The notes below the pieces were generated by a model. That model had not been told where the DNA came from. It ran no database searches and saw only the letters and a list, made by a program, of their open reading frames with translations. Positions 32,211 through 61,373 of a stretch of DNA of 64,000 nucleotides are shown in pieces. A program made the translations under genes and the position numbers. How positions within the stretch are numbered: the stretch's first letter is position 1; each line of letters starts with the position of its first letter. The stretch is from Acidihalobacter prosperus (lineage in GTDB: Bacteria > Pseudomonadota > Gammaproteobacteria > DSM-5130 > Acidihalobacteraceae): NCBI RefSeq assembly GCF_000754095.2, contig NZ_JQSG02000003.1, positions 175,397 through 239,396 on the forward strand, given 5' to 3'.

Positions 32211-33401
32211 TCAGAGCTTGCCGTAGGAATGCAGGCCGGACAACCAGATGTTGACGCCCAGGAAACAGAAGGTGACCACACCGAGTCCGACCAGGGACCA
32301 CAGCGCCATGGGCTTGCCGCGCCAGCCCTTGGTGAAGCGCATGTGCAGCCAGGCCGCGTAGTTGAGCCACACGATCAGGGCCCAGGTCTCCTTCGGGTCC
32401 CAGGACCAGTAGCCGCCCCAGGCTTCCGCGGCCCACAGCGCGCCCAGGATCGTCGCCAGCGTGAAGAAGGCGAAGCCCAGCGCGTTGTAGCTGTACATCA
32501 CGTTGTCCATCAGTTCGAGGCTGGGCAGACGGCGCGCGATACGGCCGTCGGGGTTCACACGCTCGGCGCGCAAGCGCACGAGGTAGGCCGCACCGACCAT
32601 CGCCGCGAAGGAAAACGCGCCGTAACCGATGAAATTGGCGGGTACGTGTATCTTCATCCAGAAGCTCTGCAGCGCCGGGATCAGCGGTTCGATCTTGTCC
32701 GCGTGCCAGACCACGGTGTAGTAGATCAGGAAGCCCACCGCCGCGCTGACGATCAGCATGGCCAGGGCGCCGAGCGCGCGGTTGCGGTATTTGGATTCGA
32801 AATACAGGTAAAGCAGCGTGGTCAACGAGCAGAACAGCACGAACACGTCGAACAGGTTGCTGACGGGAATGTGGCCGAAGCTGGGGCGAATCAGATAGGA
32901 CTCGCGCCAGCGCACCATCAGCGAGATGAAGCCCATGCCGACGCCGCTCCAGGCCAGCCAGCTGCCGGCACGCAGACTCAGTTCGGACAAGCGGTCGCTC
33001 TTGGCCACCAGACCGAGCACATAGGCTGCGGTCGAGGCCAGCAGCAATCCGTTCATCCAGGCGATGCCGGCCGGGCTCGAGAGGGCATAGTGCAGGATCG
33101 GGTTGGTCATCTGAGCGTTGTAATCCGAGCCGTAAAGCCAGATTGCGAACAGGCTCACCACGGCGACCACCAGGCTGAATACCTGCATCGCGCGCCAGCG
33201 CCAACCGACCGCGATCAGACCGCCAGCGGCCATTGCCAGGATGATTTCCTGCCAATACCACATTTCATTGATGAAGTGGACGTAGACGAAGACGGCGCCG
33301 GCAAGCACCACGGCGGCCCATGCCCAATCGAGCGGACGCAGCTGGCGTAGGAACGAGGGCTTCTCTAGCCCTTCCATGAGATCATGCGGTACGGACGACA
33401 T
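32211..33401 (-). CDS. ccsA: cytochrome c biogenesis protein CcsA/CcsB (system II heme handling)
   Basis: A 396-residue membrane protein with about eight helices. The tryptophan-rich periplasmic WGGYWSWDPKETWALIVWL block (near residue 325) is the heme-handling WWD domain of system II cytochrome c synthetase. With ResB it moves heme across the membrane and attaches it to CxxCH motifs. The ATG at 33401 follows the resB stop by 42 bases, and dsbA follows, so this looks like a resB-ccsA-dsbA unit. It supports the many c-type cytochromes in the window. Confidence 0.93.
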   Translation of the reverse strand: MSSVPHDLMEGLEKPSFLRQLRPLDWAWAAVVLAGAVFVYVHFINEMWYWQEIILAMAAGGLIAVGWRWRAMQVFSLVVAVVSLFAIWLYGSDYNAQMTNPILHYALSSPAGIAWMNGLLLASTAAYVLGLVAKSDRLSELSLRAGSWLAWSGVGMGFISLMVRWRESYLIRPSFGHIPVSNLFDVFVLFCSLTTLLYLYFESKYRNRALGALAMLIVSAAVGFLIYYTVVWHADKIEPLIPALQSFWMKIHVPANFIGYGAFSFAAMVGAAYLVRLRAERVNPDGRIARRLPSLELMDNVMYSYNALGFAFFTLATILGALWAAEAWGGYWSWDPKETWALIVWLNYAAWLHMRFTKGWRGKPMALWSLVGLGVVTFCFLGVNIWLSGLHSYGKL

Positions 33402-33443
33402 CGCGGTGGATCCTCCTCTGGTGGCCTGCGCGTGCTGGCCCGG

Positions 33444-35459
33444 TCATGGCCGGAGCTTACTGAACAGCGCGTCTTTGAGCTGGGCGAAGTGGTTGTCGAA
33501 TTCCATCATATTACGGTTGCTGGTACCCGCAAAGAGCACCCGGGTGCCGCCGTCGCCTCTGGCCTCGGTACGCAGCCAGATACGACGGTGGGAAACGAAG
33601 AACATCACGAAAATGCCCGCCAACAGCATCAGCGCGCCAATCCAGACGACCTTGGCGCCGGGATAGCGTGTGATCTGCAGGCCGGCGGCCTGAATCTGCT
33701 TGAAATTGGTCATCTGCAGATAGACCGGCGAACCGTAAAGCGGCAGCACACTGAGGGTCGGCACGGCGGCCTGGAAGAAATCCCAGTCCTTCTGGGTCGG
33801 CGCGCTCACGCCGTCCTTGGCCAGCACGCGGCGATAGACGCCTTCCAGCCCCGCGTTGAGCACCTTGAGGAAGGCATCTGCGGCCTCTTTCTGGCGATCC
33901 GTCGGCACGCGCTCCTTGACGCTGTCCAGTACGGCCGGGTATCCGCCCTTCGCGAACAATTGCAGAATGCGCTTGATCGAAGCCTCGATCTTGTCGTGCG
34001 TGGCCGCGTCGGCGCCGGAACCCATGGCCTGCAGCGTGGTCGTGGCCATGCTGGCCGCCACGTCATCGAGAATGGCGGGCGAATGCAGCGCTTCGGCAAG
34101 CTGCATGAATCGCTGCACGCCGCCATTCGGCCCCATCGGGACGTGCAGGTAGCGGTAGGGCTGGTTCGGCTCGCTGCGCACGCCGCTGAGGAAATAATCC
34201 GTGCCGTCGACCTTCTGCGGCACCAGGTAATTGACGTATTCGTTGGCCACGCCCTGGGTGTTGCGCAGCTTGAAGGTCACGCTGGGACCAAGATCGCGCG
34301 GCTTGGTTTCGCCGTCCGTGCCCGGCACCTGTTCGATGTTGTACATGCGGAAATTGTCGATTTCGAGCTGCCGCTTGCCGTCCTGGGTGTCCAGCGCGTA
34401 CTTGCCGAAGACCGTACCCTTGAAATCGAGCGGCTTGCTCATGCCAGCCAGCGACCATATCTTGAACTGCAGCTTGGAGCCGCCGTCTCCGAAGCTCGCC
34501 TGGAATATCTTGTCGCCATCGAAATCCAGCGGATGGTTGACCCGGATAACGTCGTGGACCGTTTTGCCGGTCCTGGGGTCGTGCACCACCACCTCGCTTT
34601 CGAAGTCCTTGGGCTGGCCGGTGACGTAGTGCTTCACGGTGAATTTCTTCACCGCGATGGTAAACGGCAGCTGCTGCACCACGTAGCCATCCTTGAGCTG
34701 CAGGAACAGCACGTTCGCCGACGAACCCTCGGGAATACTGACATTTCCGCGGTAGGACGGATTCCAGGTACCGATGCGGCTGGAGGCAGGCACCTGCGAC
34801 ACCGGGATGTCATGCGTTTCGACCTTCAGCTTGCCGAGCGAAACGGCCATCTTGAGGAACATGTTGCTGTCGAGCATGCCGCCGACCAGGATGACCACGA
34901 TGCCGATATGGGTCAGCAGGTAGCCGAAGCGATTGAAGCCGCCGCGCATCGCGGCCAGCACGCGGTGATCGCCGTGATCCTGTTCGCGCACCCGGTAGCC
35001 GTGGTTCTCCAGCAGACGGCGGGCGCGCGCGGCCACGCCGGCGGCATCCACGGAGGTCTCCTGCTCGACGTGATGACGCATCAGCCGTAGCGACTTGGCC
35101 TGTACCTTGACGCGGTACTGGCGCATCTCGCGCAGCATTCTCGGACCATTCCGGTAAACGCAGACGCTGGTCGAGATCACCAGGAAGGTCATGATGAAAA
35201 CGAACCACGTGGCCGAATACACGTCGTACAGCCCCAAGTCGCGGAACACCTTGAACCAGTAGGGGCCGAAACGGAGTAGGTAGTCGCTGTAGGGCTGGTC
35301 CTGCTTGAGCACCGTGCCGATGATGGCGGCGATGGCCACGATCACCAGCAGGGTGACCGCCAAATTCATCGAGCCGAGGAATTCCAGCAGAATGCGAGAG
35401 GTAGTCTGCGGCGCGCGCGGCGAGGGTCGCTGCGGCGTGAGGGTGGCGGCTTGGCTCAT
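33444..35459 (-). CDS. resB: cytochrome c biogenesis protein ResB/Ccs1
   Basis: A 671-residue membrane protein, the second half of the system II cytochrome c synthetase. It has an N-terminal helix pair (LEFLGSMNLAVTLLVIVAIA and TWFVFIMTFLVISTSVCVY), a helix near residue 175 (GYLLTHIGIVVILVGGML), a large periplasmic domain and a last helix near 615. Conserved histidines flank the third helix, where heme ligands are expected. It begins 66 bases after the cytochrome c4 terminator, with its own promoter presumed in between. Confidence 0.93.
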   Translation of the reverse strand: MSQAATLTPQRPSPRAPQTTSRILLEFLGSMNLAVTLLVIVAIAAIIGTVLKQDQPYSDYLLRFGPYWFKVFRDLGLYDVYSATWFVFIMTFLVISTSVCVYRNGPRMLREMRQYRVKVQAKSLRLMRHHVEQETSVDAAGVAARARRLLENHGYRVREQDHGDHRVLAAMRGGFNRFGYLLTHIGIVVILVGGMLDSNMFLKMAVSLGKLKVETHDIPVSQVPASSRIGTWNPSYRGNVSIPEGSSANVLFLQLKDGYVVQQLPFTIAVKKFTVKHYVTGQPKDFESEVVVHDPRTGKTVHDVIRVNHPLDFDGDKIFQASFGDGGSKLQFKIWSLAGMSKPLDFKGTVFGKYALDTQDGKRQLEIDNFRMYNIEQVPGTDGETKPRDLGPSVTFKLRNTQGVANEYVNYLVPQKVDGTDYFLSGVRSEPNQPYRYLHVPMGPNGGVQRFMQLAEALHSPAILDDVAASMATTTLQAMGSGADAATHDKIEASIKRILQLFAKGGYPAVLDSVKERVPTDRQKEAADAFLKVLNAGLEGVYRRVLAKDGVSAPTQKDWDFFQAAVPTLSVLPLYGSPVYLQMTNFKQIQAAGLQITRYPGAKVVWIGALMLLAGIFVMFFVSHRRIWLRTEARGDGGTRVLFAGTSNRNMMEFDNHFAQLKDALFSKLRP

Positions 35460-35525
35460 GATTCAATTCGCGGATGCAGGGATAAAAAGCGTACAGCTTG
35501 GACCATTTTAGTGTCGACCGCCAGA

Positions 35526-35564
35526 CAAAAGTTCCCCCCGGCCCCGTGCGCCACGGGGCCGGGG
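35526..35564 (-). terminator. rho-independent terminator of the cytochrome c4 pair
   Basis: A perfect 13-base stem (35536-35548 with 35552-35564) with a three-base loop, followed on the minus strand by GGAACTTTTG. It separates the c4 genes from resB. Confidence 0.8.
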
Positions 35565-35570
35565 ATCGGC

Positions 35571-36215
35571 TCAGCGCAGCCCCTGCAGATATACGGCGAC
35601 CGCCTGCATGTCCTGCTTGTCCATGCCGGCGACCACATGCGCCATCATCTTGCCGGCATCGTTGCCGCGCGAACCGCTCTTGAAGGCTTCGAGCTGCGTC
35701 ACGAGGTACTTGGCGTGTTGTCCGGCCAGCCGCGGGAAGTGGCCAAGCTGGCCAGCCCCGTCCACGCCGTGACAGCGGATACAGGCGCTGACGCCCGCCC
35801 CGGCCACCCCCTCGCGGTAGATCCGCTCGCCCCGCGCCACTGTGGCTGCGTCGGCGGCAGGCGCCGCGGCGGGCACCGGTGCCGGCTGTGCTGCATAGTA
35901 GGCTGCCAGGTCGCGCAGATTCTGATCCGATAGCGCGGCGACCATCGGATTCATGATGGCATTCTTGCGCGCGCCGCTCTTGAAATTCTCCAATTGCTTG
36001 TGGAGATAGTTCGCGCTCATGCCCGCCAGATTGGGAAAATCCGGCGCCACGCTGATGCCATTGACGCCGTGGCAGGCGGCGCAGCTTGCCGAAAGCTGCT
36101 TGCCGGCGCTCACATCGCCCGCCGTCGCCGCATCCTGGACGGGCGCGGTTTCCGCCACCGCGGCGGTAGCGCCCAGGGCGACCGCCAGTGCTACCAAAAT
36201 ACTGCTGATTTTCAT
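35571..36215 (-). CDS. diheme cytochrome c4
   Basis: A 214-residue periplasmic electron carrier with a signal peptide (MKISSILVALAVALGATAAVA) and two CxxCH motifs (CAACH near residue 46 and CIRCH near 145). Each is followed by the c4 block FPNLAG or FPRLAGQ and a distal methionine (MNPM, KMMAH). Cytochromes c4 ferry electrons from bc complexes or iron-oxidation chains to terminal oxidases. The ATG at 36215 follows GGGGGG; a longer frame begins at 36236. It is second of two tandem paralogues. Confidence 0.92.
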   Translation of the reverse strand: MKISSILVALAVALGATAAVAETAPVQDAATAGDVSAGKQLSASCAACHGVNGISVAPDFPNLAGMSANYLHKQLENFKSGARKNAIMNPMVAALSDQNLRDLAAYYAAQPAPVPAAAPAADAATVARGERIYREGVAGAGVSACIRCHGVDGAGQLGHFPRLAGQHAKYLVTQLEAFKSGSRGNDAGKMMAHVVAGMDKQDMQAVAVYLQGLR

Positions 36216-36265
36216 GTTCCCCCCGCTGCTGCTCATCGCTTTTGAATCGACTGCCGCGGCGCCAC

Positions 36266-36877
36266 TCAGTACAGCCCTTGCATGTACTGCGCCACCGCCC
36301 GCATCTGTTGCTCGCTCATGCGCGAGGCGATATCACGCATCATCTGATTGGGATCGTTGTCGCGGGTTCCCTTGGCGAAGGCCTCGAGCTGGGCGAAGAC
36401 GTATTCGGCATGCTGCCCGGCGAGCCGGGGATAGCCTGCCGGCGCGTTGCCGACGCCATTGGGCGCATGGCAGGCCATGCAGGCCGGCACCGCTCGCCCG
36501 AAATCGCCGCCCCGATACACCGCCTCACCCGCCTTCACCAGGCGCCGGTCGCCGGCTGCGGCCTTGGGCGACTGGCTCGCGAAATAGGCTGCGAGATGGC
36601 GGATATCCTCGTCGCTCAGCTTGGCGGCCATGCCGTTCATGGTGGCATTACGGCGTTTGCCGGATTTGAACTCCGTGAGTTGCTTGACCAGATACCTGTA
36701 GTTTTGCCCCGCGAGATTGGGGTACTGCGGATTGAAGCCGCTACCCGTCGCCCCGTGACAGGCTGCGCAAGTCGTGGAAAGCCGCTGTCCCACGGCGGGG
36801 TCGCCAGCCGCGTACGCCCGGCCACCGACGAACACCAAGACCGCCACGACGGCGGGCAACATCCATCTGCTGATCAT
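36266..36877 (-). CDS. diheme cytochrome c4 (tandem paralogue)
   Basis: A 203-residue paralogue of the gene downstream, with signal peptide, heme motifs CAACH and CMACH, the blocks YPNLAGQNYRYLVKQL and YPRLAGQHAEYVFAQL, and methionines in NGMA and NQMM. Its Shine-Dalgarno, GGGGGGAG, is eight-base complementary to the C-rich loop of the small RNAs at 42.2-42.9 kb, so translation could be controlled by them. It is first in the c4 pair and divergent from engB. Confidence 0.92.
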   Translation of the reverse strand: MISRWMLPAVVAVLVFVGGRAYAAGDPAVGQRLSTTCAACHGATGSGFNPQYPNLAGQNYRYLVKQLTEFKSGKRRNATMNGMAAKLSDEDIRHLAAYFASQSPKAAAGDRRLVKAGEAVYRGGDFGRAVPACMACHAPNGVGNAPAGYPRLAGQHAEYVFAQLEAFAKGTRDNDPNQMMRDIASRMSEQQMRAVAQYMQGLY

Positions 36878-37007
36878 CACACTCCCCCCATCCGGCCTTG
36901 CCAGGCCCTTGTTATGGTACGGACCGCCCTGCCCCAAGCGTCCTTTTTATAGTCATTATTATCCATGGCTTATACCATAGCGCTCCAGTCACGGCAAAAG
37001 AGCGGGC

Positions 37008-51540: not shown

Positions 51541-52065
51541 TCAGGCCCTGCGGGGGCCGTGATCGGTTGGCGCGCCGCCAAGCAGCTGCGCGAGTGTGAA
51601 AATCGAATAGGCGGCGATATAGGCCCAGACGCCGTAGACGAGGTAGTGATGGACGACCAGATCCTCGCTGAACAGACGCCCGCCGCCATGCGCGAATGCG
51701 CCGAGCAGCGCACCCGCAAAACCGGTCAGGCACAACAGACTGACCGCGCAGACGCCGACGCCTTGCGCGCACAGGCCGCCGATGCCGGTAGCCGAGCTCG
51801 GACGGATGGCATACCACCAGCGCAGCTGAAACGCCACCGCCAGCACCAGCGTCACCGCCAGCGCGTCGTGCACCCACATCCGGTCGAGCAGGCCGCCGCG
51901 GAACATGCCGTCTCCGCCGACCAGCTCGAGCAGCACGCCGATCGCGAGCATGAACAGGATGCCGCGGTTCACGCACTCGAATCCGTGGCATTCCACCTTG
52001 AAACGAGGGCCGGACTTCCCGTCCGCGCCGTCCGATGCATCCTGGTGATCATTCATCGTGGACAT
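51541..52065 (-). CDS. four-helix membrane protein of the bc operon, possibly b-type
   Basis: A 174-residue membrane protein with about four helices (residues 32-50, 66-86, 96-120 and 138-160). Histidines lie near helix ends (VHDALAVT, AFAHGGG, VVHHYLVYG), and Cys occurs at KVECHGFEC. The layout recalls small b-type cytochromes of the b561 kind, but I cannot identify a family. It lies four bases after the cytochrome c4 stop and is the last gene of the petA to c4 operon, so a role in passing electrons between that complex and c4 is possible. Start chosen at 52065 (GGAG nine bases upstream). Confidence 0.5.
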   Translation of the reverse strand: MSTMNDHQDASDGADGKSGPRFKVECHGFECVNRGILFMLAIGVLLELVGGDGMFRGGLLDRMWVHDALAVTLVLAVAFQLRWWYAIRPSSATGIGGLCAQGVGVCAVSLLCLTGFAGALLGAFAHGGGRLFSEDLVVHHYLVYGVWAYIAAYSIFTLAQLLGGAPTDHGPRRA

Positions 52066-52069
52066 AGGC

Positions 52070-52831
52070 TCAATCTCCGCTGTCAGTATCCGAGGGATGA
52101 GGCAACTGGGTTGTCGGATTGCCCCCCGACAACGTGGGGATGAAGGTGGCAAGCGCCAGGATTTCCTGCTTGTCCAGACGCCCGGCGACGTCGCGCATGA
52201 TGCCGTTGGGATCGTTCGCGCGCGTGCCGTCATGGAAATAGGTCAACTGCTCCACGAGGTAGGTCTTGTCCTGTCCGGCCAGGCGCGGGAATTCCGGCGG
52301 GATGCCCGCGCCTGTGGCGCTGTGGCAGGCTTCACAGGCCGGCACGTCGGTTGCCCGCACGCCGCCGTAATAGATGGCCTTGCCCGCGCTCCATAGCGCC
52401 TTTTCCTTGGCGTCCGTGGGAACCGGCTTCGGCTTCGGCGGCGCCAGGGAACCGAAAAATGCCACCAGATCCTCCATCTCCTTGTTGCCGTGAATGGTCT
52501 TGACGGCGTCGATCATGGTCCCCTTGGCGAGCGGATCGTCGCGCTTCTTGGAGGCGAAATCGTGCAGTTCCTTGAGCAGATACTGCGGCCATTGGCCCGC
52601 CAGATCGGGGAACCCCTTGACCGGCGAAATGCCATCCGCGCCATGGCAGACGATGCACATCGTCTTGGCGTCAGTTTTGCCCAGCTCGGGGTTGCCGCCG
52701 CTGATCACACCGATCACTCCATTCTTGGGACCTGCCAGCGCGGCACCCGAGGCCGACAGCATCAGCAGAGCGCCCAGGACATACATCGCGGGCCGGCGAG
52801 CTTGCACGGCGAATCCTTCCCTATTCGTCAT
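52070..52831 (-). CDS. diheme cytochrome c4 of the bc operon
   Basis: A 253-residue secreted diheme cytochrome with heme motifs CIVCH near residue 60 and CEACH near 170 and the c4 blocks FPDLAGQWPQYLLKEL and FPRLAGQDKTYLVEQL. It is longer than the c4 pair at 36 kb because of an N-terminal extension and a Pro/Lys-rich linker (APPKPKPVPTDAKEK). It overlaps the preceding small membrane gene by four bases (ATGA). It is the natural soluble partner of the cytochrome c1 in this operon. Confidence 0.9.
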   Translation of the reverse strand: MTNREGFAVQARRPAMYVLGALLMLSASGAALAGPKNGVIGVISGGNPELGKTDAKTMCIVCHGADGISPVKGFPDLAGQWPQYLLKELHDFASKKRDDPLAKGTMIDAVKTIHGNKEMEDLVAFFGSLAPPKPKPVPTDAKEKALWSAGKAIYYGGVRATDVPACEACHSATGAGIPPEFPRLAGQDKTYLVEQLTYFHDGTRANDPNGIMRDVAGRLDKQEILALATFIPTLSGGNPTTQLPHPSDTDSGD

Positions 52832-53172
52832 TTGTCGCTCCCGAGGATTTCGCGAATAAACAGAAATATGTAGTAAAAGGTCAGCGACAGCAGCAGCAGA
52901 ACCAGCGGCGCCGTCAGCGGATACATGGTTTTGAAATGCGGTGCGGTCACGAAAAAGCCCGCGCTCATGGCCGACAGCAGCAATGCCCGCCGTTCGGCGC
53001 GCTCGGCCATGCGGTAGGTCATGCTCAAGGCCAGCATCACCAGCGCGAAAAGCACCAGGTTCACGATGCCGGGGATACCGAGATCGAGCACCAGAGGCAT
53101 GCCGAACACGATGGCCCAGAGACCGTTTTTATATGAGCTGCCAGGTGTGGCATTTGTCAGACCAGCGTCCAT
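52828..53172 (-). CDS. small membrane protein of the bc operon
   Basis: A protein of about 114 residues with three hydrophobic segments (about residues 18-50 as a hairpin, 65-78 and 85-110). I recognise no family. It lies between petC and the c4 gene and overlaps the latter, so it is probably an accessory subunit or assembly factor of the complex. Two ATG codons lie six bases apart; the second (53172) has AGAGGA at proper spacing, so I chose it. Confidence 0.65.
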   Translation of the reverse strand: MDAGLTNATPGSSYKNGLWAIVFGMPLVLDLGIPGIVNLVLFALVMLALSMTYRMAERAERRALLLSAMSAGFFVTAPHFKTMYPLTAPLVLLLLSLTFYYIFLFIREILGSDK

Positions 53173-53232
53173 GTCCATTCCTCTTCAGTTCGGTTGCAGG
53201 GTGTTTTCCGCTCAGGCAAATCGCCCCGCAAT

Positions 53233-53922
53233 CTAGAGAATCGCGATAATGAAACCCACCACCGTGGCCAACCCGAAACCACCGACCACGTACGGGCCGA
53301 TATCGTGGCGTTCAAGTACCGACGGGTCGCTGGCGTAGCGCAGGAAGGCCACGATATCCGACACCATGGTTTTGTATTGCTCTGGGGTCATGCTGCCCTT
53401 GCGGTACAACTTGCCGTCCTTGAGATACTGACCGCCGTAGGGCGCCAGAACATTGGGCATGGCCACGCTTGGGAACACATGATTGTTCCACCCGGTTGGC
53501 CGGCTGTTGTCGAGATAGAAGCTGGTGAGGTAGGTGTAGATGAAATCCGGCCCCAGATAACGCTCGATCTGGGACAAATCGGGCGGCGGCTTGCCAAAAA
53601 ACTTGGAGGCCTCCTTGTGGGTCATGGTCACGATCATGCCAGCATGGACGTTGGCTCCATCAGGCCGCATCACGTACTCGGTCAATTCCTTCTGGGTCAT
53701 GCCCAGGCCCTTCATCAGATTGATGTAGCGCAGGTACTTGACGCTATGACAGGACAGGCAGTTCTGGCCAAAATATTCGGCGCCACGAATCACCGTGGCC
53801 TTGTCCATGGTGTAATGCGGCGCACGCAGCGGCGTGGCGCCCTCCGCATCGCACACATTCATCGACGCCAGCATCCCCATCGTCAGGATCGCCAGTGCCA
53901 CCTTGCGGATTCTCATTGCCAT
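53233..53922 (-). CDS. petC: cytochrome c1 of the bc complex
   Basis: A 229-residue protein with a signal peptide, one heme motif CLSCHSVKYLRY (near residue 45) and a C-terminal anchor (VVGGFGLATVVGFIIAIL). The likely axial Met is in VAMPNVLAPYGGQYL near 155. These are the landmarks of bc1-type cytochrome c1. It accepts electrons from the Rieske protein and exchanges them with the c4 cytochrome encoded downstream. The frame also opens with TTG at 53931; the ATG at 53922 has GGAG at nine bases. It lies 55 bases after the fusion gene. Confidence 0.92.
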   Translation of the reverse strand: MAMRIRKVALAILTMGMLASMNVCDAEGATPLRAPHYTMDKATVIRGAEYFGQNCLSCHSVKYLRYINLMKGLGMTQKELTEYVMRPDGANVHAGMIVTMTHKEASKFFGKPPPDLSQIERYLGPDFIYTYLTSFYLDNSRPTGWNNHVFPSVAMPNVLAPYGGQYLKDGKLYRKGSMTPEQYKTMVSDIVAFLRYASDPSVLERHDIGPYVVGGFGLATVVGFIIAIL

Positions 53923-53977
53923 ATCAGTCAACTCCGATTTGATTACGCACCCGTAACATCGAAAACACGATGCCAGA

Positions 53978-55957
53978 TCAGGCTTGTCCGCTCGCGTATT
54001 TATGCGCCGTCCATCGTCGCACCAGGCTCAATACCGGCATGGCGGCGAAAAATATGAAATACCCGATGGTGAACCAGCGCCCCCACATCGCGAGCACCGG
54101 CGTCGCCGGCTCGAAGCCGATCCAGCCAAGCACGATGTAACAGATGACCATGAAGATCAGCAGCACCTTGTACGTATTGTCGAAAAGGGGGTGCGGCTTG
54201 ACTCTCGCCTCCGGACTGTTGTCGAGAAACGGCACCAAAAACATGACCACGATGGCCAGCGTCATCATGAATACGCCAAGATGCTTATCCGATATCGAGC
54301 GAAGAATCGCGTAGAACGGCCCCAGGAAAAACAACGGGCGCACGTCCGCCGGCGACTTGAGCGTATTCGCGGGCGTCGAGTTGTCCTGATCGATGAAAAT
54401 ATTGAAGAAAGTCGGCTCGAAAAACACGATGGCCGCGAATATCGTACCCAGCAAGGCGTAAAAAAACAGATCCTTTTCGCGAAAATAGGAGAAAAGATCG
54501 ATATTGATGCTCAGCGGCTTGGGCATCGATTCGCCATATTCCGAGCCCAAGGTCATCGACAGGATCTGGTCGACCTGGCGCGAGCAGGTTCCGCAGGACG
54601 AGGCGGCACGCGTGGTCAGGCGCACGTCCTCCACGGAGGACAGATTGTGCATCTTGATTGCGCTGACGATTTCACCTTTGCTGACGGAATTGCAGGTACA
54701 GATTTCCGCGGTATCCGGCAGATTGCCAACGATATCGACGGCCTCGCCGCCACCGCTGCCGCCAGTCAGCAGGACATCGCGACGATCCGATATGTCCTCG
54801 CCGTTGCGGATCAGCTCCTTGAACCACTGCGACAGCGAGACGTCGCCGTACAGAATGCAACCGGCCACGCGGTTGTTCTTGATGCAGGCCTTTTTATAGA
54901 TGCCGCGACGCTCGTCGACATAGACCAGCTCGTCGATGCCTTCTCCGGCCATGATCTGGCCCTGCGAGTACAGGTCGATTCCGGTGATCTTGAGTTGGGT
55001 CGAAGGTAGCGAGCCGCCGTAACCGGCCTCGATATCGCCCGACATGTAGCGCGCCAGCACGCGCGCCTGCTCGTAGCAGGGATCGACCAGACCGTAGGTC
55101 TTGCCCTTGTGCTGCACGCATTCGCCGATGGCGAAAATCGAAGGGTCGCTGGTTTCGAGCTGATCGTTGACCACAATGCCGCGATCCACCTTGAGGCCCG
55201 CCGCCTTCGCCAATTCCACATTGGGGATGATGCCGGCGCAAATGACCACCATGTCGGCGCGAATCTCCTCGCCGCGCTGGAAGCGTACCGCCTCGACATG
55301 CTCGTCGCCGACGATGGATTCGGTCATGCGCGGCAGGTGAAAGACGATGCCCTTATCCTCCAGGCGACGCTGCAGCAGCGCCGACCCGCCGGCATCGAGC
55401 TGGCGCTCCATCAGCCAATCGGCCAGGTGCACCACCGCCACCTCGGCGCCCTGGACACGCAGCGCGTTGGCGGCTTCCAGACCCAGCAGGCCACCGCCGA
55501 TCACCACCACATGCGTGTGCTTGCCGGCGCGTTCGAGCATGTAGTCGACATCGTCGATGGTGCGGAACACCGTGACTTCCGGCAACTCGCGACCTGGGAT
55601 CGGCGGCACCATGGGCTTGGAACCCACCGCGAACACCAAGTAGTCGTAGGCTTCGGTCACGCCCTGGTCCGAGGTCACGATCTTGCGTTCGCGATCCACC
55701 GACGCGATCCGATGTCCCTTGTAGAGCTTGTTGCCGCCATCGCCGACCCAGGCCTCGTCATCGATCATGATGTCGGGCAGGGAGCGTTCGTTGGCGAGCA
55801 GCGGGCTGAGCTGGATACGATCGTATGCGGAGTAGGGCTCGTCCCCGAAGACGATGATCTGGTAGCCCCCCGGCGCCTGCTTTTGCAGTTCCTTCACGAA
55901 GCGGCTGCCGGCCATGCCGTTGCCGATCACCACCACACGTTTTTGTTCTGACACCAT
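53978..55957 (-). CDS. NAD(P)H/FAD oxidoreductase - BFD [2Fe-2S] - cytochrome b C-half fusion
   Basis: A single 659-codon frame with three parts. Residues 1-400 are a NirB/rubredoxin-reductase-type flavoprotein: FAD motif GNGMAG (12-16), NAD(P) motif GGGLLGLE (154-161) and second FAD block SIFAIGEC (273-280). Residues 415-475 form a BFD-type domain with Cys420, Cys422, Cys455 and Cys458 (CxC...CxxC) for a [2Fe-2S] cluster. Residues 480-659 are the C-terminal half of cytochrome b, with helices E-H near 498-515, 560-578, 597-612 and 628-646 and the block GPFYAILRS. The Qo motif PEWY is PLFF (541-544). No siroheme domain is present, so it is not NirB. The module sits at the D-E loop, the cytoplasmic side near Qi. 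It could link quinone or heme bH to NAD(P)H. Confidence 0.9.
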   Translation of the reverse strand: MVSEQKRVVVIGNGMAGSRFVKELQKQAPGGYQIIVFGDEPYSAYDRIQLSPLLANERSLPDIMIDDEAWVGDGGNKLYKGHRIASVDRERKIVTSDQGVTEAYDYLVFAVGSKPMVPPIPGRELPEVTVFRTIDDVDYMLERAGKHTHVVVIGGGLLGLEAANALRVQGAEVAVVHLADWLMERQLDAGGSALLQRRLEDKGIVFHLPRMTESIVGDEHVEAVRFQRGEEIRADMVVICAGIIPNVELAKAAGLKVDRGIVVNDQLETSDPSIFAIGECVQHKGKTYGLVDPCYEQARVLARYMSGDIEAGYGGSLPSTQLKITGIDLYSQGQIMAGEGIDELVYVDERRGIYKKACIKNNRVAGCILYGDVSLSQWFKELIRNGEDISDRRDVLLTGGSGGGEAVDIVGNLPDTAEICTCNSVSKGEIVSAIKMHNLSSVEDVRLTTRAASSCGTCSRQVDQILSMTLGSEYGESMPKPLSINIDLFSYFREKDLFFYALLGTIFAAIVFFEPTFFNIFIDQDNSTPANTLKSPADVRPLFFLGPFYAILRSISDKHLGVFMMTLAIVVMFLVPFLDNSPEARVKPHPLFDNTYKVLLIFMVICYIVLGWIGFEPATPVLAMWGRWFTIGYFIFFAAMPVLSLVRRWTAHKYASGQA

Positions 55958-56015: not shown

Positions 56016-56663
56016 TCAACGTTGCGCGGAGCGGCTGGCTTCCTGCTCGATCCTGAGCGAATAAAGGTTTTGCAGATGCATGACGATCAGCGCCACCAGC
56101 GCCATCGGAATAACGGCGACATGGAAGGCCATGAAGCGGTTGATCGTGGGCGTGCTGACCAGCGGGCCGCCGCGAATCCAGGTCACGAGGTCGTGCCCGA
56201 CCAGCGGCACCGAACCGAAAAGATTGGTGATCACCATGCCGCCCCAGAGCGACATGTTGCCGTAGGGCAGGATATAGCCGAAGAATTCCTCGCCCATGAG
56301 CAGCACCAGCAGACTGACGCCCCAAAGCCAAACCTTGCCGCTGCGCTTCTTGTAGGTGCGATCCCACAGCGCACGGAACATGTGGATGTAGACGATGATG
56401 AACAGCAGCGAGGCGCCGGTGGTGTGGATGTAGCGCACCAGCCAGCCCCACCGCACGTCGTACATGATGCTCATCACCGAGTTGTAGGCGCCCGATCCGT
56501 CCGCACCGCCCGGGTGATAGCTCATCAGCAGGAATACGCCGGTGATGAACTGGATGCCGATCAGCACGATCGACATCGCCCCGAGGACGCGCCAGAAACG
56601 CGATCGCAACGCCTTGACCTTGGTGCCCATGTCAGGGCCCGTACTCACACTTACACTCGCCAT
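56016..56663 (-). CDS. petB: cytochrome b, heme-binding N-terminal half
   Basis: A 215-residue protein that contains only helices A-D of cytochrome b. Heme ligands are His80/His94 in helix B (13 residues between) and His181/His196 in helix D (14 between, the b6 spacing; bc1 has 13). It lacks the Qo helices E-H, which are fused to the oxidoreductase in the next gene 58 bases downstream. Together they rebuild an eight-helix cytochrome b. The sequence GWLVRYIHTTGASLLFI is otherwise bc1-like. An AAGGAG eight bases before the ATG supports the start. No frameshift separates the halves, because each has its own start and ribosome site. Confidence 0.92.
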   Translation of the reverse strand: MASVSVSTGPDMGTKVKALRSRFWRVLGAMSIVLIGIQFITGVFLLMSYHPGGADGSGAYNSVMSIMYDVRWGWLVRYIHTTGASLLFIIVYIHMFRALWDRTYKKRSGKVWLWGVSLLVLLMGEEFFGYILPYGNMSLWGGMVITNLFGSVPLVGHDLVTWIRGGPLVSTPTINRFMAFHVAVIPMALVALIVMHLQNLYSLRIEQEASRSAQR

Positions 56664-56723: not shown

Positions 56724-57335
56724 TCAGCACAGCCTCGCCTTGGGATACATCTTGGTCACCACGACCTTCTTGCCACCGTCCTCGTAGTGGTATTCGGGAA
56801 TGGCCATATTGCGCGGCGCGGGCGAGGTCACGATCACGCGTGCCGAAAGGTCGTACATCGAGCCGTGGCACGGGCAGTGGAAGCCGCCCAGCCAGCCCGG
56901 GCGTACGGAATTGGGTTTGGGCTTGTACAGCGGAATACAGCACATGTGCGTACAGATGCGTACCAGCACGAGCATGTTTTTCTGCTCCATGCGTGCGCGA
57001 TAGATGTTCTTGGCGTAAGGCGGCTGCTGCGGCACCTTGAGATCGGGATCCTTGAGAATGCCCTGCGCCTGAACCTTCTCCAGGGTCGCTAGCATTTCCG
57101 GCGTGCGGTTCATCACCATCACCGCCTTGCCCTGCCAAGGCACCGTGACCTGACCGCCCGGCGGCACCTTGGTGACGTCGATTTCGACGCTCGAGGCTGC
57201 CTCGGTGGCCGCACTCGGGTTCAGTCCGTCCAGCATCGGCACACCCAGCGCCCCCACGGTGGCGGCACCGGCGAGCTTTACGCTGGAACTGAGAAACTCC
57301 CGGCGTTCCTCCTGCTTTTCTTTGCGTACGGTCAT
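56724..57335 (-). CDS. petA: Rieske iron-sulfur protein of the bc complex
   Basis: A 203-residue protein with a twin-arginine type signal anchor (ERREFLSSSVKLAGAA). The cluster motifs are CTHMCC (Cys128, His130, Cys133) and CPCHGS (Cys154, Cys156, His157). The first box normally reads CTHLGC; here Gly is Cys132, which gives an extra thiol beside the cluster disulfide. The protein also ends in Cys. It is the first gene of the petA-petB-fusion-petC operon. A frame upstream opens at 57386, but GAGG before 57335 and the Tat signal support the shorter form. It acts at the periplasmic face. Confidence 0.93.
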   Translation of the reverse strand: MTVRKEKQEERREFLSSSVKLAGAATVGALGVPMLDGLNPSAATEAASSVEIDVTKVPPGGQVTVPWQGKAVMVMNRTPEMLATLEKVQAQGILKDPDLKVPQQPPYAKNIYRARMEQKNMLVLVRICTHMCCIPLYKPKPNSVRPGWLGGFHCPCHGSMYDLSARVIVTSPAPRNMAIPEYHYEDGGKKVVVTKMYPKARLC

Positions 57336-57951
57336 CTCTGTCCTCTGAATGTCAGCCTTGGGCAGAGCAATCGTTGCGCGATTCATGCCAGATTTCTTAT
57401 CTGCGCATAAATTTATAGCATCGTCCCAATTTATTCTTTTTTAAACAATCAATTAAAACATCCACACTTGACCGATTTCGGGAGATGCGCAGCCACGCAG
57501 GGCTAGGAAGCGCGATCGAGGTGGAGCGAAACGAGTCATCCCTGCCGTGATTCATTTCATTACGAGTCAGCCGCCGTTGCGCTCTCGCGCCCGCTTTTCC
57601 GGGTGTTCGAAGGCATCGGTCAATCAGGATCATTCACTCGGCAGGACGCCGAAGGGGGACCATCGCGACAGGAAAGCGCCCATCAAGGCACGGCGTGCGT
57701 GCATGGTTGAGCATTCCCAATAATCGCCGACGGCGTCCCCCACAGAACCGAGACGCTTTTCATGTCTCGCGGCGCACACGCTCGCTATCTGGCCGGACTC
57801 CACACCCTCGCGGCGCCTGTCGAGCGACGAAAGGTGACGACGGCAACAGCTCGCCCTAGCGTGCGAACGGCCCCGGAAGATCGGCGGCGCGTACAGGGGT
57901 AACGGCGGTATCGAAGCTGCGCCGAGGATTCAGCGGGATGAACAGGCGAGT
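57336..57951. other. gene-free region upstream of petA
   Basis: Its petA-proximal part (57400-57470) is strikingly AT-rich in an otherwise GC-rich window and should carry the operon promoter. The rest shows no gene, tRNA or clear repeat. A 78-codon frame on the minus strand (57397-57633) has no coding features. Confidence 0.6.
57412..57417 (-). promoter_or_regulatory. candidate -10 box of the petA operon
   Basis: TATAAA on the minus strand within GCTATAAAT, in the AT-rich patch 77 bases before the petA ATG. No convincing -35 is seen at 16-18 bases, so an activator may be needed. Confidence 0.35.
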
Positions 57952-57996: not shown

Positions 57997-58827
57997 TCAG
58001 CCCGGCTTGCCCATGCCGGGCAATTTCAGCATTGCCGCGATATCCTGGAGGATGCGGTCGTCCGGGTATGCGCTTGCCTGCTTGATCTTGACGCGGATAT
58101 CGCCATCGGGCGCGACCAACACCAATTCGTCATGATCGACGATGTGCGGATGGGGTGGCGCGTTTTGCGTCAGCGGATTGACCGCCTCGGCATAATCATA
58201 TTGCCCACGCTGTTGCATGCGTCGCGCGTACGCGCGGTAGGCGGCCGCATCCAGCGGGCGGTACTGGACGGCATAGCGCCCGGCAACGACCGCGCCGATA
58301 CTCGACTCGCTACCGGTAAGAAATGCCCAATTCGACGCATCCGCCGGCCCCAGGCCGGCAATCGCCTGCATGAAGCGCGACATTTCCGGCGGCCCGGCAT
58401 GTGTCGGATCGAGGTTGTAGGATACGAATACCACCTTGCTCCCCAGCAGCCCGCTCTGTTTGAGCTCCTGATACAGATTCATCAGGTGGCTGACCAGCAC
58501 GGGGCTGCTATGCACGCCATACGGCGCGATGAAGCTTACGATCTGCACCTTGCCCTTGAATCGCGTGGACGCCACCTTTGCGCCATTCTGATCGATCAGG
58601 TCGGTGAATCGAGGCGCTTTCCCGAAGCGACCGCGCTCGACCTGCGATTTCATCATGTCGGTTGCCGCACGCGTATCGATATGACTTCGCGCTTCGTGCA
58701 GCCTGACCGTACTGACGATGCTCGAAATTGCAAAACCGAACACCAAACCCACAAAAACACCAACCGAAACGCTGAACCAGAAGTATGAGCGCTGGTTGAA
58801 ATCCTCCTGCTTGATGTTCGTGCTCAT
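57997..58827 (-). CDS. Sco-like protein without copper-binding cysteines
   Basis: A 276-residue membrane-anchored protein (helix about residues 17-40) with the SCO1/SenC thioredoxin-like fold: FTDLIDQNGAKVASTRFKGK, VQIVSFIAPY and the block PPEMSRFMQAI. It has no cysteine at all. The usual CxxxC copper site is replaced by GVHSSP, although a distal His (PHIVDHDEL) is near where the third ligand sits. The gene overlaps the intact Sco gene by four bases and is probably a duplicate retained for another task, such as partner binding or a chaperone role in cytochrome oxidase assembly. Confidence 0.75.
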   Translation of the reverse strand: MSTNIKQEDFNQRSYFWFSVSVGVFVGLVFGFAISSIVSTVRLHEARSHIDTRAATDMMKSQVERGRFGKAPRFTDLIDQNGAKVASTRFKGKVQIVSFIAPYGVHSSPVLVSHLMNLYQELKQSGLLGSKVVFVSYNLDPTHAGPPEMSRFMQAIAGLGPADASNWAFLTGSESSIGAVVAGRYAVQYRPLDAAAYRAYARRMQQRGQYDYAEAVNPLTQNAPPHPHIVDHDELVLVAPDGDIRVKIKQASAYPDDRILQDIAAMLKLPGMGKPG

Positions 58828-59600
58828 GCCCGCCCCTCCTTCCGCAACACGCGAATGATGTCATTCAGCATGACCGCATCCGAAACCGTGTTTGCATCGC
58901 CAAGCACGTATCGCACTACACCGTCGACGCCTACGATGATCGCCGAGCTGTTATGGATGATCGCGTAATCGGGGTGTGACTCGTCGGCCAGGGGATTACG
59001 CATCGACGGCACATAGTGATACGTACCGTCCTTTCGCTGCTGCGCAAATACCTGCTCTAGCTGATCGGTCGCGATCTTTCGATAATCCGCGTGGAAGCCC
59101 CGCTTGAGGACTCGCGCGGTCAAGGCGGCCGGCGCGGTCAGAAATTGCCACAGAGCGGAATTTGGATCCGCGCCGTACTGGCGCATAAAACGACTCATTT
59201 CGCGGGGGGCGGCACCCTCAGGATCCACATTGAAGCTAAGCAGTTGCACGCGATCCTGCAGGCCGCGCTGCCGCAACAGGGTTTCCAGGTTAACCATGCG
59301 CGACGCCAGGGTCGGACACACGCGCGTGCAGTACGGATACATGAAGGTCACCAGCAGCACCTTGCCTTTGAAGGCGCTTGAATCCACCGGCTGCCCTTGC
59401 TGGTTCACGAACCCATTGAAACTCGGCGCATGAAACATCGTCTTCGGCGCATCGCCCGCTGCCGCAAAATCGGGTTTTTTCGGGGGCGGGCGCCAGGGCA
59501 GCACACTGCCAAGGGCTACGGCCACAATCAGTCCGATCACGCCTCCGAGCATCAAACCGCTGATCGGTGTTTTGTAGCGCTTGAACTGCTCCGACCCCAT
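58824..59600 (-). CDS. SCO1/SenC copper chaperone
   Basis: A 258-residue protein with an N-terminal membrane anchor (about residues 17-38) and the Sco fold. Copper ligands are the CTRVC motif (FMYPYCTRVCPT near 100) and a distal His in AIIHNSSAIIVG near 215. Sco proteins insert copper into the CuA site of cytochrome oxidase, which fits the neighbouring heme A synthesis genes and rusticyanin. The ATG at 59600 has GGAGG eight bases upstream. It is the first gene of a two-gene unit and divergent from the thioredoxin-like gene. Confidence 0.9.
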   Translation of the reverse strand: MGSEQFKRYKTPISGLMLGGVIGLIVAVALGSVLPWRPPPKKPDFAAAGDAPKTMFHAPSFNGFVNQQGQPVDSSAFKGKVLLVTFMYPYCTRVCPTLASRMVNLETLLRQRGLQDRVQLLSFNVDPEGAAPREMSRFMRQYGADPNSALWQFLTAPAALTARVLKRGFHADYRKIATDQLEQVFAQQRKDGTYHYVPSMRNPLADESHPDYAIIHNSSAIIVGVDGVVRYVLGDANTVSDAVMLNDIIRVLRKEGRA

Positions 59601-59712
59601 CACGTAACCTCCCGCTGCACGACGCAAACCGAATCGCCGCATCGCCTGTCCGCGTCATCCACTCACCAGCGCCTGCTGCGCCGCTGACCCATCGCCCCAC
59701 GGAGTCTACCGC

Positions 59713-60234
59713 ATGTCGAACACGACACCGTCCCGCAAACGACTTTATTCGATCCTGGCGCCCAGTGGCCTGCTACTCCTACTCGCCGCAGCATTCTGGT
59801 ACTACAACAGCGAACATCCTGCACCCAGCGCTTTGCCTCAGCTCGTCCTGCCCTCGTTGGGCGGCGATCACGTTGCGCTCGATCATCTGCAGGGAAAACC
59901 GTTGGTATTGAATCTGTGGGCCACGTGGTGTCCACCCTGTCGTGCGGAGCTGCCGCTGCTCATCAAGGCCCGCCAGAGCCACCCGGGCATTCGATTCTAT
60001 TTCGCGGAGCAAGGCAATGCCTATAACAACGTTGACGCATTCGCCAAAAAATATGCGCTTCCGCTGCCACTAGTACTGCTCGACACAAATACGAAACTGA
60101 GCCAGTTTTACGGCGTGCTCGGCTACCCGACCACCGTATTCTACAATTCACACGGCAACATCGTGAAAATATATCGCGGAGAGCTCAAGCCAGCTGTACT
60201 GCAGCAATATCTGGAACAAATTACCCAGCGTTGA
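59713..60234 (+). CDS. TlpA/ResA-like thioredoxin, membrane anchored
   Basis: A 173-residue protein with one N-terminal helix (about 13-31) and a periplasmic thioredoxin fold. The active site is LWATWCPPCRAELPLL (CPPC, near residue 78) and the cis-proline region is VLGYPTTVFYNS. TlpA and ResA proteins keep thiols reduced for CuA assembly or cytochrome c maturation. Its place beside Sco and rusticyanin favours CuA assembly. It is the only plus-strand gene in the right 16 kb. GGAG sits eight bases before the ATG. Confidence 0.88.
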   Translation: MSNTTPSRKRLYSILAPSGLLLLLAAAFWYYNSEHPAPSALPQLVLPSLGGDHVALDHLQGKPLVLNLWATWCPPCRAELPLLIKARQSHPGIRFYFAEQGNAYNNVDAFAKKYALPLPLVLLDTNTKLSQFYGVLGYPTTVFYNSHGNIVKIYRGELKPAVLQQYLEQITQR

Positions 60235-60254: not shown

Positions 60255-60300
60255 TAAAAAAGCAAGGCACTACCCGCCCTGATACATGCAGGCAGTGCCT
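60255..60300 (-). terminator. rho-independent terminator of the rus transcript
   Basis: On the minus strand AGGCACT pairs with AGTGCCT across a 22-base loop with inner GCC/GGC pairing, followed by TGCTTTTTTATC. It follows the small gene downstream of rus and could also stop the convergent tlpA-like gene. Confidence 0.65.
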
Positions 60301-60658: not shown

Positions 60659-61204
60659 TTACTTGACGACGATCTTGCCGTACATGCCGGTCGAGGCATG
60701 GCCAGGCGTCTTGCACAGGTACCAATAGGTCCCCGGACCCGGCGGCGTCCAGTCAACCGTATCGGTCTGGAACTGACCGCCACCCGCGGCGGAAAGTTCG
60801 GGCACCACCGCCATCGCATGCAGCGAGTCCGGGTTAGGCATCGCGGAGAACGGGGGGCCCTTCTTGGTGATCATGAAGCTGTGCTCGGCACCGCCGTTGG
60901 TATTGATCACGGTGATCGTCACCTTCTTCACGCCCGCGTCGTAGGTCAGGGTCGGGTTGGTCTGCTTGTCGACCTCGAACGAAGGGAAGGGATAGCCCGG
61001 CAGCACCTGCTCGACCACGGTATGCGGGGTGGCGCCCGAATAGGTGACCTCGTTCTTGCCGGTAACCTTGCCGCTGTCTTCCTTCATCAGCTTGATGACT
61101 TCGGGCTTGCCCACCGTGGTCACGCCGGCGTGGGCCATACCCATTGCCAGCAGGGCGCTCACACCGGCCGCACCTGCGATCGCCTTGACGATGCGATTCT
61201 TCAT
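60659..61204 (-). CDS. rus: rusticyanin (periplasmic type 1 blue copper protein)
   Basis: A 181-residue precursor with signal peptide MKNRIVKAIAGAAGVSALLA and cleavage near MAHAG. Rusticyanin landmarks are LPGYPFPSFEVDKQTNPTL, INTNGGAEHSFMITKKGPP and the copper loop YLCKTPGHASTGMYGKIVVK. The ligands His (in AEHSF), Cys, His and Met keep the C-x4-H-x4-M spacing, and Ser after the first His and the INTN Asn, both tied to the high potential, are conserved. Rusticyanin takes electrons from outer-membrane Fe(II) oxidation and delivers them to aa3 oxidase or uphill through the bc complex. A second ATG at 61222 also has a strong ribosome site. Confidence 0.95.
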   Translation of the reverse strand: MKNRIVKAIAGAAGVSALLAMGMAHAGVTTVGKPEVIKLMKEDSGKVTGKNEVTYSGATPHTVVEQVLPGYPFPSFEVDKQTNPTLTYDAGVKKVTITVINTNGGAEHSFMITKKGPPFSAMPNPDSLHAMAVVPELSAAGGGQFQTDTVDWTPPGPGTYWYLCKTPGHASTGMYGKIVVK

Positions 61205-61373
61205 GAATTGCTCCTTTTTCATGCTTTCCTCCTCAGACAAAAATTGTGCATCAATCGCTGCACAGCCATCGCCACGACCCGTTGCAAACACGCCCTAGTG
61301 GCCGCCTCTGTCATCGGGCATGACATATCTCACTTCAAACCACATGCTTCGTAGATAAATTCATTTTTTCTAA

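Follow-up and report, generated by a model that had tools for sequence, protein, structure and literature searches.

Iron oxidisers have to start from electrons about 1 V too positive to make NADH. How they manage it is an old question, and the answer so far has been reverse operation of the bc1 complex and of complex I. The locus described here raises it in another form: what does an NADH oxidoreductase do inside the cytochrome b of a Rieske/cytochrome b complex encoded next to genes of iron oxidation? The locus lies in a window of 64,000 nucleotides (the whole stretch of DNA analysed) from Acidihalobacter prosperus.

An NADH Module Fused to One Half of Cytochrome b

53978..55957, minus strand: fusion gene, 659 aa (ORF; Pfam; full length in genomes G358 and G369; dN/dS)
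54800..55939, minus strand: FAD/NAD domain and NirB/rubredoxin reductase C-terminal domain, residues 7-386 of the fusion (PF07992, PF18267, TIGR02374)
54557..54703, minus strand: BFD [2Fe-2S] domain, residues 419-467, Cys 420/422/455/458 (PF04324)
53981..54502, minus strand: cytochrome b helices E-H, residues 486-659, subunit-IV-like half (PF00032, alignment, hydropathy)
56016..56663, minus strand: petB N-terminal half (petB_N, helices A-D), 215 aa (PF00033, 8e-49; four heme-ligand His; Qi His replaced by Tyr)

The fusion gene is a frame of 659 codons on the minus strand, with an ATG start and zero internal stops, and the plus-strand reading of the same interval is interrupted by stops. The initial annotation had described an unbroken 659-codon frame joining a flavoprotein, a BFD domain and helices E-H, leaving the strand unstated; the ORF and the Pfam matches both agreed with this description. 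A NirB-type NADH:FAD oxidoreductase is followed by the BFD [2Fe-2S] domain and by cytochrome b helices E-H, and the corresponding Pfam order was Pyr_redox_2 (residues 7-285, 8e-60), Rubredoxin_C (318-386, 8e-24), Fer2_BFD (419-467, 1e-14) and Cytochrom_B_C (529-634, 3e-24). The NirB model TIGR02374 scored 496.7 bits, under its cut-off of 578, and covered only positions 1-476 of 794.

Both Rossmann motifs of the NADH module (GNGMAG and GGGLLG) were invariant in the alignment, as were all four BFD cysteines across 29 aligned proteins. At the C-terminus, hydropathy predicted four membrane helices within residues 497-646, consistent with E-H. The predicted fold of the NADH module resembled NADH-dependent ferredoxin reductases of the PDB (Z about 36, rmsd 2.6, 394 residues); the prediction was good for this module only, with a pLDDT mostly of 30-50 in the cytochrome b half, and the PDB matches spanned only residues 4-415, with no bearing on that half. 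BphA4/TodA-type reductases and NirB, the fold relatives of the module, carry electrons from NADH to [2Fe-2S] centres.

The missing helices A-D had been placed in the preceding gene, and we recovered them there, in petB_N. Since petB_N and the fusion are in different frames and a TAA stands immediately 5' of the fusion ATG, these are two genes.

Conservation and Distribution

The full-length fusion was also present in G369, on a single contig and with 92% identity, and in G358 with 90% identity, that is, in 3/3 genomes of the genus examined. In comparisons within the genus, leaving out pairs with saturated dS, dN/dS was 0.02-0.08 for the Rieske protein, petB_N, cytochrome c1 and every segment of the fusion; every domain is under purifying selection. 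A merger of two genes by assembly or sequencing error is extremely improbable. Nothing was found in its favour, and it was rejected on the independent G358 and G369 genomes: three genomes carry the corresponding full-length frame, 90-92% identical and with low dN/dS.

The proposed search for the same domain order elsewhere, which covered Pseudomonadota genomes and 72,556 plasmids, returned the fusion in G358 and G369 and in no others. It was absent from both sister-genus genomes examined, and no second case was found among 369 Gammaproteobacteria, 398 Pseudomonadota or 57 genomes from the order of a rusticyanin-bearing relative. Seven of the plasmid records reached at least 80% coverage of the whole-fusion query; when the part from BFD to cytochrome b served as query, none of the 72,556 plasmids reached 80%. 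Among the matches listed for petB_N, cytochromes b outside the genus lay in frames of at least 405 aa and the split petB frame occurred only in the genus. We found no report of a fusion between an NADH module and cytochrome b in the open literature.

The Gene Cluster Around the Fusion

56724..57386, minus strand: petA, Rieske iron-sulfur protein, box 1 CTHMCC, box 2 CPCHGSMYD (PF00355, alignment)
53233..53931, minus strand: petC, cytochrome c1, one CxxCH, start codon TTG uncertain (PF02167)
52828..53178, minus strand: 116-aa protein with two predicted membrane helices (hydropathy; conserved in three genomes)
52070..52831, minus strand: diheme c4-type cytochrome, two CxxCH (PF00034 in two stretches)
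51541..52233, minus strand: membrane protein with at least three helices (hydropathy; conserved in three genomes)

The gene order petA-petB_N-fusion-petC-116aa-c4 was identical in all three genomes of the genus. Intergenic gaps from petA through c4 were 60, 58, 46, 54 and -4 bases, and from this spacing we infer that the cluster is an operon. The 116-aa protein, strongly conserved among the three genomes, had zero matches to Pfam and NCBIfam families and is a candidate additional subunit of the Rieske/cytochrome b complex. The membrane protein at 51541-52233 also lacked any family match; its real start is probably near 52065, and it is possibly a b-type heme or metal protein. As a separate observation, it bears a conserved ECHG(F/L)ECV close to its N-terminus and His residues inside its helices.

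Another side observation concerns box 1 of the Rieske protein, which reads CTHMCC and not CTHLxC, with an additional Cys beside the cluster/disulfide Cys. This extra Cys occurred in the Rieske protein of all three genomes and was absent from both paralogues in the genome.

A bc1-Type Complex With a Rewritten Qi Site

The complex shares with bc1 a Rieske protein with C-T-H-x-x-C and C-P-C-H-G-S boxes, two bis-His hemes and a CxxCH in c1. Its Rieske protein, cytochrome b and c1 are all homologous to those of gammaproteobacterial bc1 (e.g., the 8smr cytochrome b), and petB_N was 43-48% identical to both paralogues in its own genome. In contrast, the cytochrome b that is a single chain of 7-8 helices in bc1 is divided here between 215 aa and the C-terminal part of the 659-aa fusion, a 480-residue redox module is inserted, the Qo motif is changed, and the 116-aa protein and other extra subunits are present.

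We aligned 44 cytochromes b, 41 ordinary and three fusion-type, and the four heme-ligand His were conserved throughout (44/44). The Qi site of bc1 is made of LH...GSNNP and a Lys-Asp pair. Its His (LH of LHxxGSNNP) was found in 41/41 ordinary sequences, whereas all three fusion-type sequences had Tyr in its place and had lost the GSNNP loop; the helix-a motif NFNFWYFFGS had become RSRFWRVLGA. The Lys-Asp pair was retained, and given this retention quinone may still bind at Qi. Judged by the alignment, a rewritten Qi site together with the retention of all heme ligands is what is new here. At Qo, the motif P(V/L)WY had changed to PLFF, and catalysis there may differ or fail. The high-potential arm looks intact because the Ser and Tyr of the Rieske CPCHGSxY and the CxxCH heme site of c1 were retained. 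By established topology the D-E loop of cytochrome b is cytoplasmic, which would locate the NADH module on the cytoplasmic face, adjacent to bH and to the Qi pocket.

A b6f origin of the split was rejected on the missing cN Cys, the helix number and sequence similarity: petB_N contains no Cys (the cN heme of b6 is Cys-bound), the C-terminal half has four predicted helices where the subunit IV of b6f has three, and petB_N scored 5e-50 against bc1 and 3e-26 at best against b6. The helix-D heme spacing, b6-like at first sight, was set aside as common to ordinary gammaproteobacterial bc1. We also rejected a 'deranged' bc1 of the type described in acidophilic Acetobacteraceae (PMC10715153), every heme and cluster ligand being retained here.

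Relationship to NirB and to Other Reductase-Bearing Complexes

The N-terminal half of NirB shares with the fusion 48-52% identity over 478 residues, the same FAD/NAD/BFD order and the four BFD Cys, but the fusion is without the siroheme/[4Fe-4S] domain. The NirB-conserved columns altered in all three fusions numbered 52 of 221, and in a tree with 32 gammaproteobacterial NirBs the fusion module fell outside them, on a long branch of its own with full support. A pyridine-nucleotide flavoenzyme, ferredoxin-NADP+ reductase, is bound by plant cytochrome b6f on the stromal face, near the Qi-side heme; it belongs to another flavoprotein family, is ferredoxin-linked and is bound non-covalently, whereas the link is covalent here.

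The initial annotation mentioned an NAD(P) oxidoreductase with the Rieske/cytochrome b complexes of anammox bacteria. Such complexes, the closest proposal to the present case, have indeed been reported in Kuenenia (Kuste4569-4574 and Kustd1480-1485), with a separate reductase that is proposed, not shown, to make NAD(P)H (PMC12954380). They resemble the present complex in having a Rieske/cytochrome b core, an NAD(P) oxidoreductase whose expected position is cytoplasmic, a two-chain cytochrome b and a doubtful Qi site (PMC12954380). However, the anammox reductase subunit (Kuste4570/Kustd1483) resembles domains with several [4Fe-4S]/[3Fe-4S] clusters, whereas the module here is NirB-type, fused, and has one [2Fe-2S] motif. 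In the anammox complexes, cytochrome b is of b6f-like type and a cN heme is present; that of the fusion complex is bc1-type, its E-H half carrying the module. Multiheme cytochromes replace c1 in the former, and c1 is monoheme in the latter. The fusion complex looks like a separate invention, and belongs to neither the anammox type, nor b6f, nor NirB.

Iron-Oxidation Genes and Other Respiratory Complexes

60659..61291, minus strand: rusticyanin, the blue copper protein of Fe(II) oxidation (TIGR03095; Cu-ligand residues in the alignment)
57997..58827 and 58824..59642, minus strand: two SCO1/SenC-type copper chaperone genes (PF02630)

Rusticyanin scored 136 bits against TIGR03095, slightly below the cut-off of 146.7. 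The neighbouring gene set (cyc2-like, cup-like, coxB, coxA, ctaA, ctaB and rusticyanin, with the cox/cta genes upstream of rusticyanin) resembles a cluster reported for Acidiferrobacter (PMC10654088). This rusticyanin/aa3-oxidase cluster adjoins the pet cluster in 3/3 genomes of the genus, in line with the iron-oxidiser setting assumed earlier. The two clusters may be separate transcription units, because an opposite-strand gene (59713-60234) and a terminator-like site near 60281 intervene. Read from its sequence, this plus-strand gene is thioredoxin/TlpA-like with a CPPC motif; it lies between the rusticyanin and SCO genes, in the same place in three of three genomes. Farther away, at 32211-36937 on the minus strand, two cytochrome c-like genes (two CxxCH each) are followed by what by eye appear to be two cytochrome c maturation genes of the ResB/CcsA type.

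Elsewhere the genome contains a gene for the 49-kDa subunit of complex I. It also has two further ordinary bc1 operons (G000:C3:92274-93359, L040; G000:C1:765k, L041), which would leave the fusion-bearing bc complex free to specialise. One ordinary operon reads petA-petB-petC, beside two genes resembling sspA/sspB in size and sequence start, and another petA-diheme cytochrome c-petB-petC.

Energetics of Electron Flow

We assumed potentials of -0.32 V for NAD, +0.09 V for UQ and +0.65 V for rusticyanin or +0.45 V for cytochrome c, and a gradient with a delta pH of 4.5-5 and a membrane potential of +10 to +30 mV inside. In this bookkeeping, reverse bc1 was near zero at the rusticyanin level, and reverse bc1 with reverse complex I was feasible at about -16 kJ/mol. 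Direct transfer from Fe(II) to NAD+ through the fusion complex, with Q-cycle coupling, came to about +45 kJ/mol at +0.45 V and about +76 to +83 kJ/mol with rusticyanin; for bifurcation of quinol electrons to NAD+ the figure was about +81 to +119 kJ/mol. NADH-producing modes overall thus required about +45 to +120 kJ/mol, and NADH-oxidising modes were strongly downhill: about -81 to -119 kJ/mol for confurcation of NADH and Fe-derived electrons to quinol, and -82 kJ/mol for NADH to quinone. The NADH-making routes being uphill in an acidophile, NADH input is therefore favoured. The retained NirB-type NAD site makes NADH a likelier partner than NADPH.

Discussion

What we observe is an architecture conserved in three genomes, in which the cofactor ligands are intact and the Qi site is rewritten. 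Because the module is inserted at this site, electron exchange between NADH, FAD, [2Fe-2S] and bH is the simplest reading, and the module probably does exchange electrons with heme bH via its [2Fe-2S] centre, replacing or overriding quinone chemistry at Qi. The earlier proposal of a direct coupling of NAD(P)(H) to the quinone pool or bH may thus hold for NAD(H) and bH, given the kept motifs, the cytoplasmic position and the rewritten Qi site; its uphill direction is not supported.

As to direction, the odds seem to us about even that NADH charges the low-potential chain and Fe(II) electrons enter the high-potential arm. Electrons would then pass from NADH through FAD, [2Fe-2S] and bH to bL, while Fe(II)-derived electrons would go from rusticyanin to the c4-type cytochrome, the likely link to c1, and on to c1 and the Rieske protein. 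At Qo, ubiquinone would be reduced by one electron from each source, with uptake of two protons from outside (confurcation), and complex I in reverse would restore the NADH. Such a 'low gear' would raise electrons from Fe(II) to the quinone pool whenever reverse bc1 of the ordinary kind runs close to equilibrium. Against this model, the spending of NADH by a reductant-short autotroph looks wasteful. To the explanation as a whole, a bc1-type complex with cytochrome b split in the cytoplasmic D-E loop and a NirB-derived NADH dehydrogenase module (FAD and one [2Fe-2S]) covalently inserted, NADH-input confurcation included, we give a probability of about 0.45.

The opposite flow, with quinol or Fe(II) electrons running through bL, bH, [2Fe-2S] and FAD to NAD+ and driven either by the proton gradient or by passage of the other electron to an acceptor of high potential, appears unlikely. 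The lost Qi His fits an exit via bH, autotrophic iron oxidisers require NADH and the rus cluster adjoins, and the same logic was proposed for the Kuenenia complexes with NAD(P) oxidoreductases (PMC12954380). However, with ubiquinone and an acidophile gradient the direct route would cost about +45 to +83 and bifurcation about +81 to +119 kJ/mol, and the fusion complex could reduce NAD+ only if its quinone had a lower potential or the gradient were small. The usual reaction of NirB-type flavoproteins is oxidation of NADH, and there is a single [2Fe-2S] here against several [4Fe-4S] in the anammox subunits. Complex I need not be bypassed, because it is present; the direct uphill route to NAD(P)+ around complex I that the initial annotation had envisaged is not supported, given this gene and the cost.

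We also find it rather improbable that the complex is an NADH:quinone or NADH:cytochrome c oxidoreductase, passing electrons from NADH via bH to quinone at the altered Qi, with the quinol leaving or being re-oxidised at Qo, for NADH disposal or anaerobic Fe(III) reduction. Transfer from NADH to quinone is favourable (-82 kJ/mol), the Qi Lys-Asp pair is kept, and Fe(III) reduction with S0 is among the listed growth modes of Acidiferrobacter thiooxydans (PMC8790237), but three of three genomes have lost both the Qi His and the GSNNP loop, and an ordinary NADH dehydrogenase is already encoded. Decidedly unlikely is a module that is no redox partner of bH and either donates electrons to a separate cytoplasmic acceptor or acts as a redox sensor or scaffold, with cytochrome b as a mere membrane anchor. 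In favour of such a role, the NirB part lacks the siroheme domain and hence its usual acceptor; yet the insertion falls exactly at the bH/Qi face, Qi is rewritten and all cofactor motifs are constrained.

Returning to NADH-input confurcation, we tentatively propose that the bc1-type complex confurcates, or bifurcates reversibly, with NADH instead of a second quinone at Qi as the partner of the low-potential hemes; it would give an acidophile a low-gear pump for uphill Fe(II) electrons. That the NAD module belongs to the complex is beyond doubt, since the fusion is a single chain. If this proposal is true, the complex would be a covalently wired NADH-heme b-quinone-cytochrome c junction of a kind not previously described, and a natural experiment in which the Q cycle has had Qi exchanged for a flavin/[2Fe-2S] exit. 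NADH chemistry inside cytochrome b would offer a testable junction at which NAD(H) meets the quinone pool and the chain of iron oxidation.
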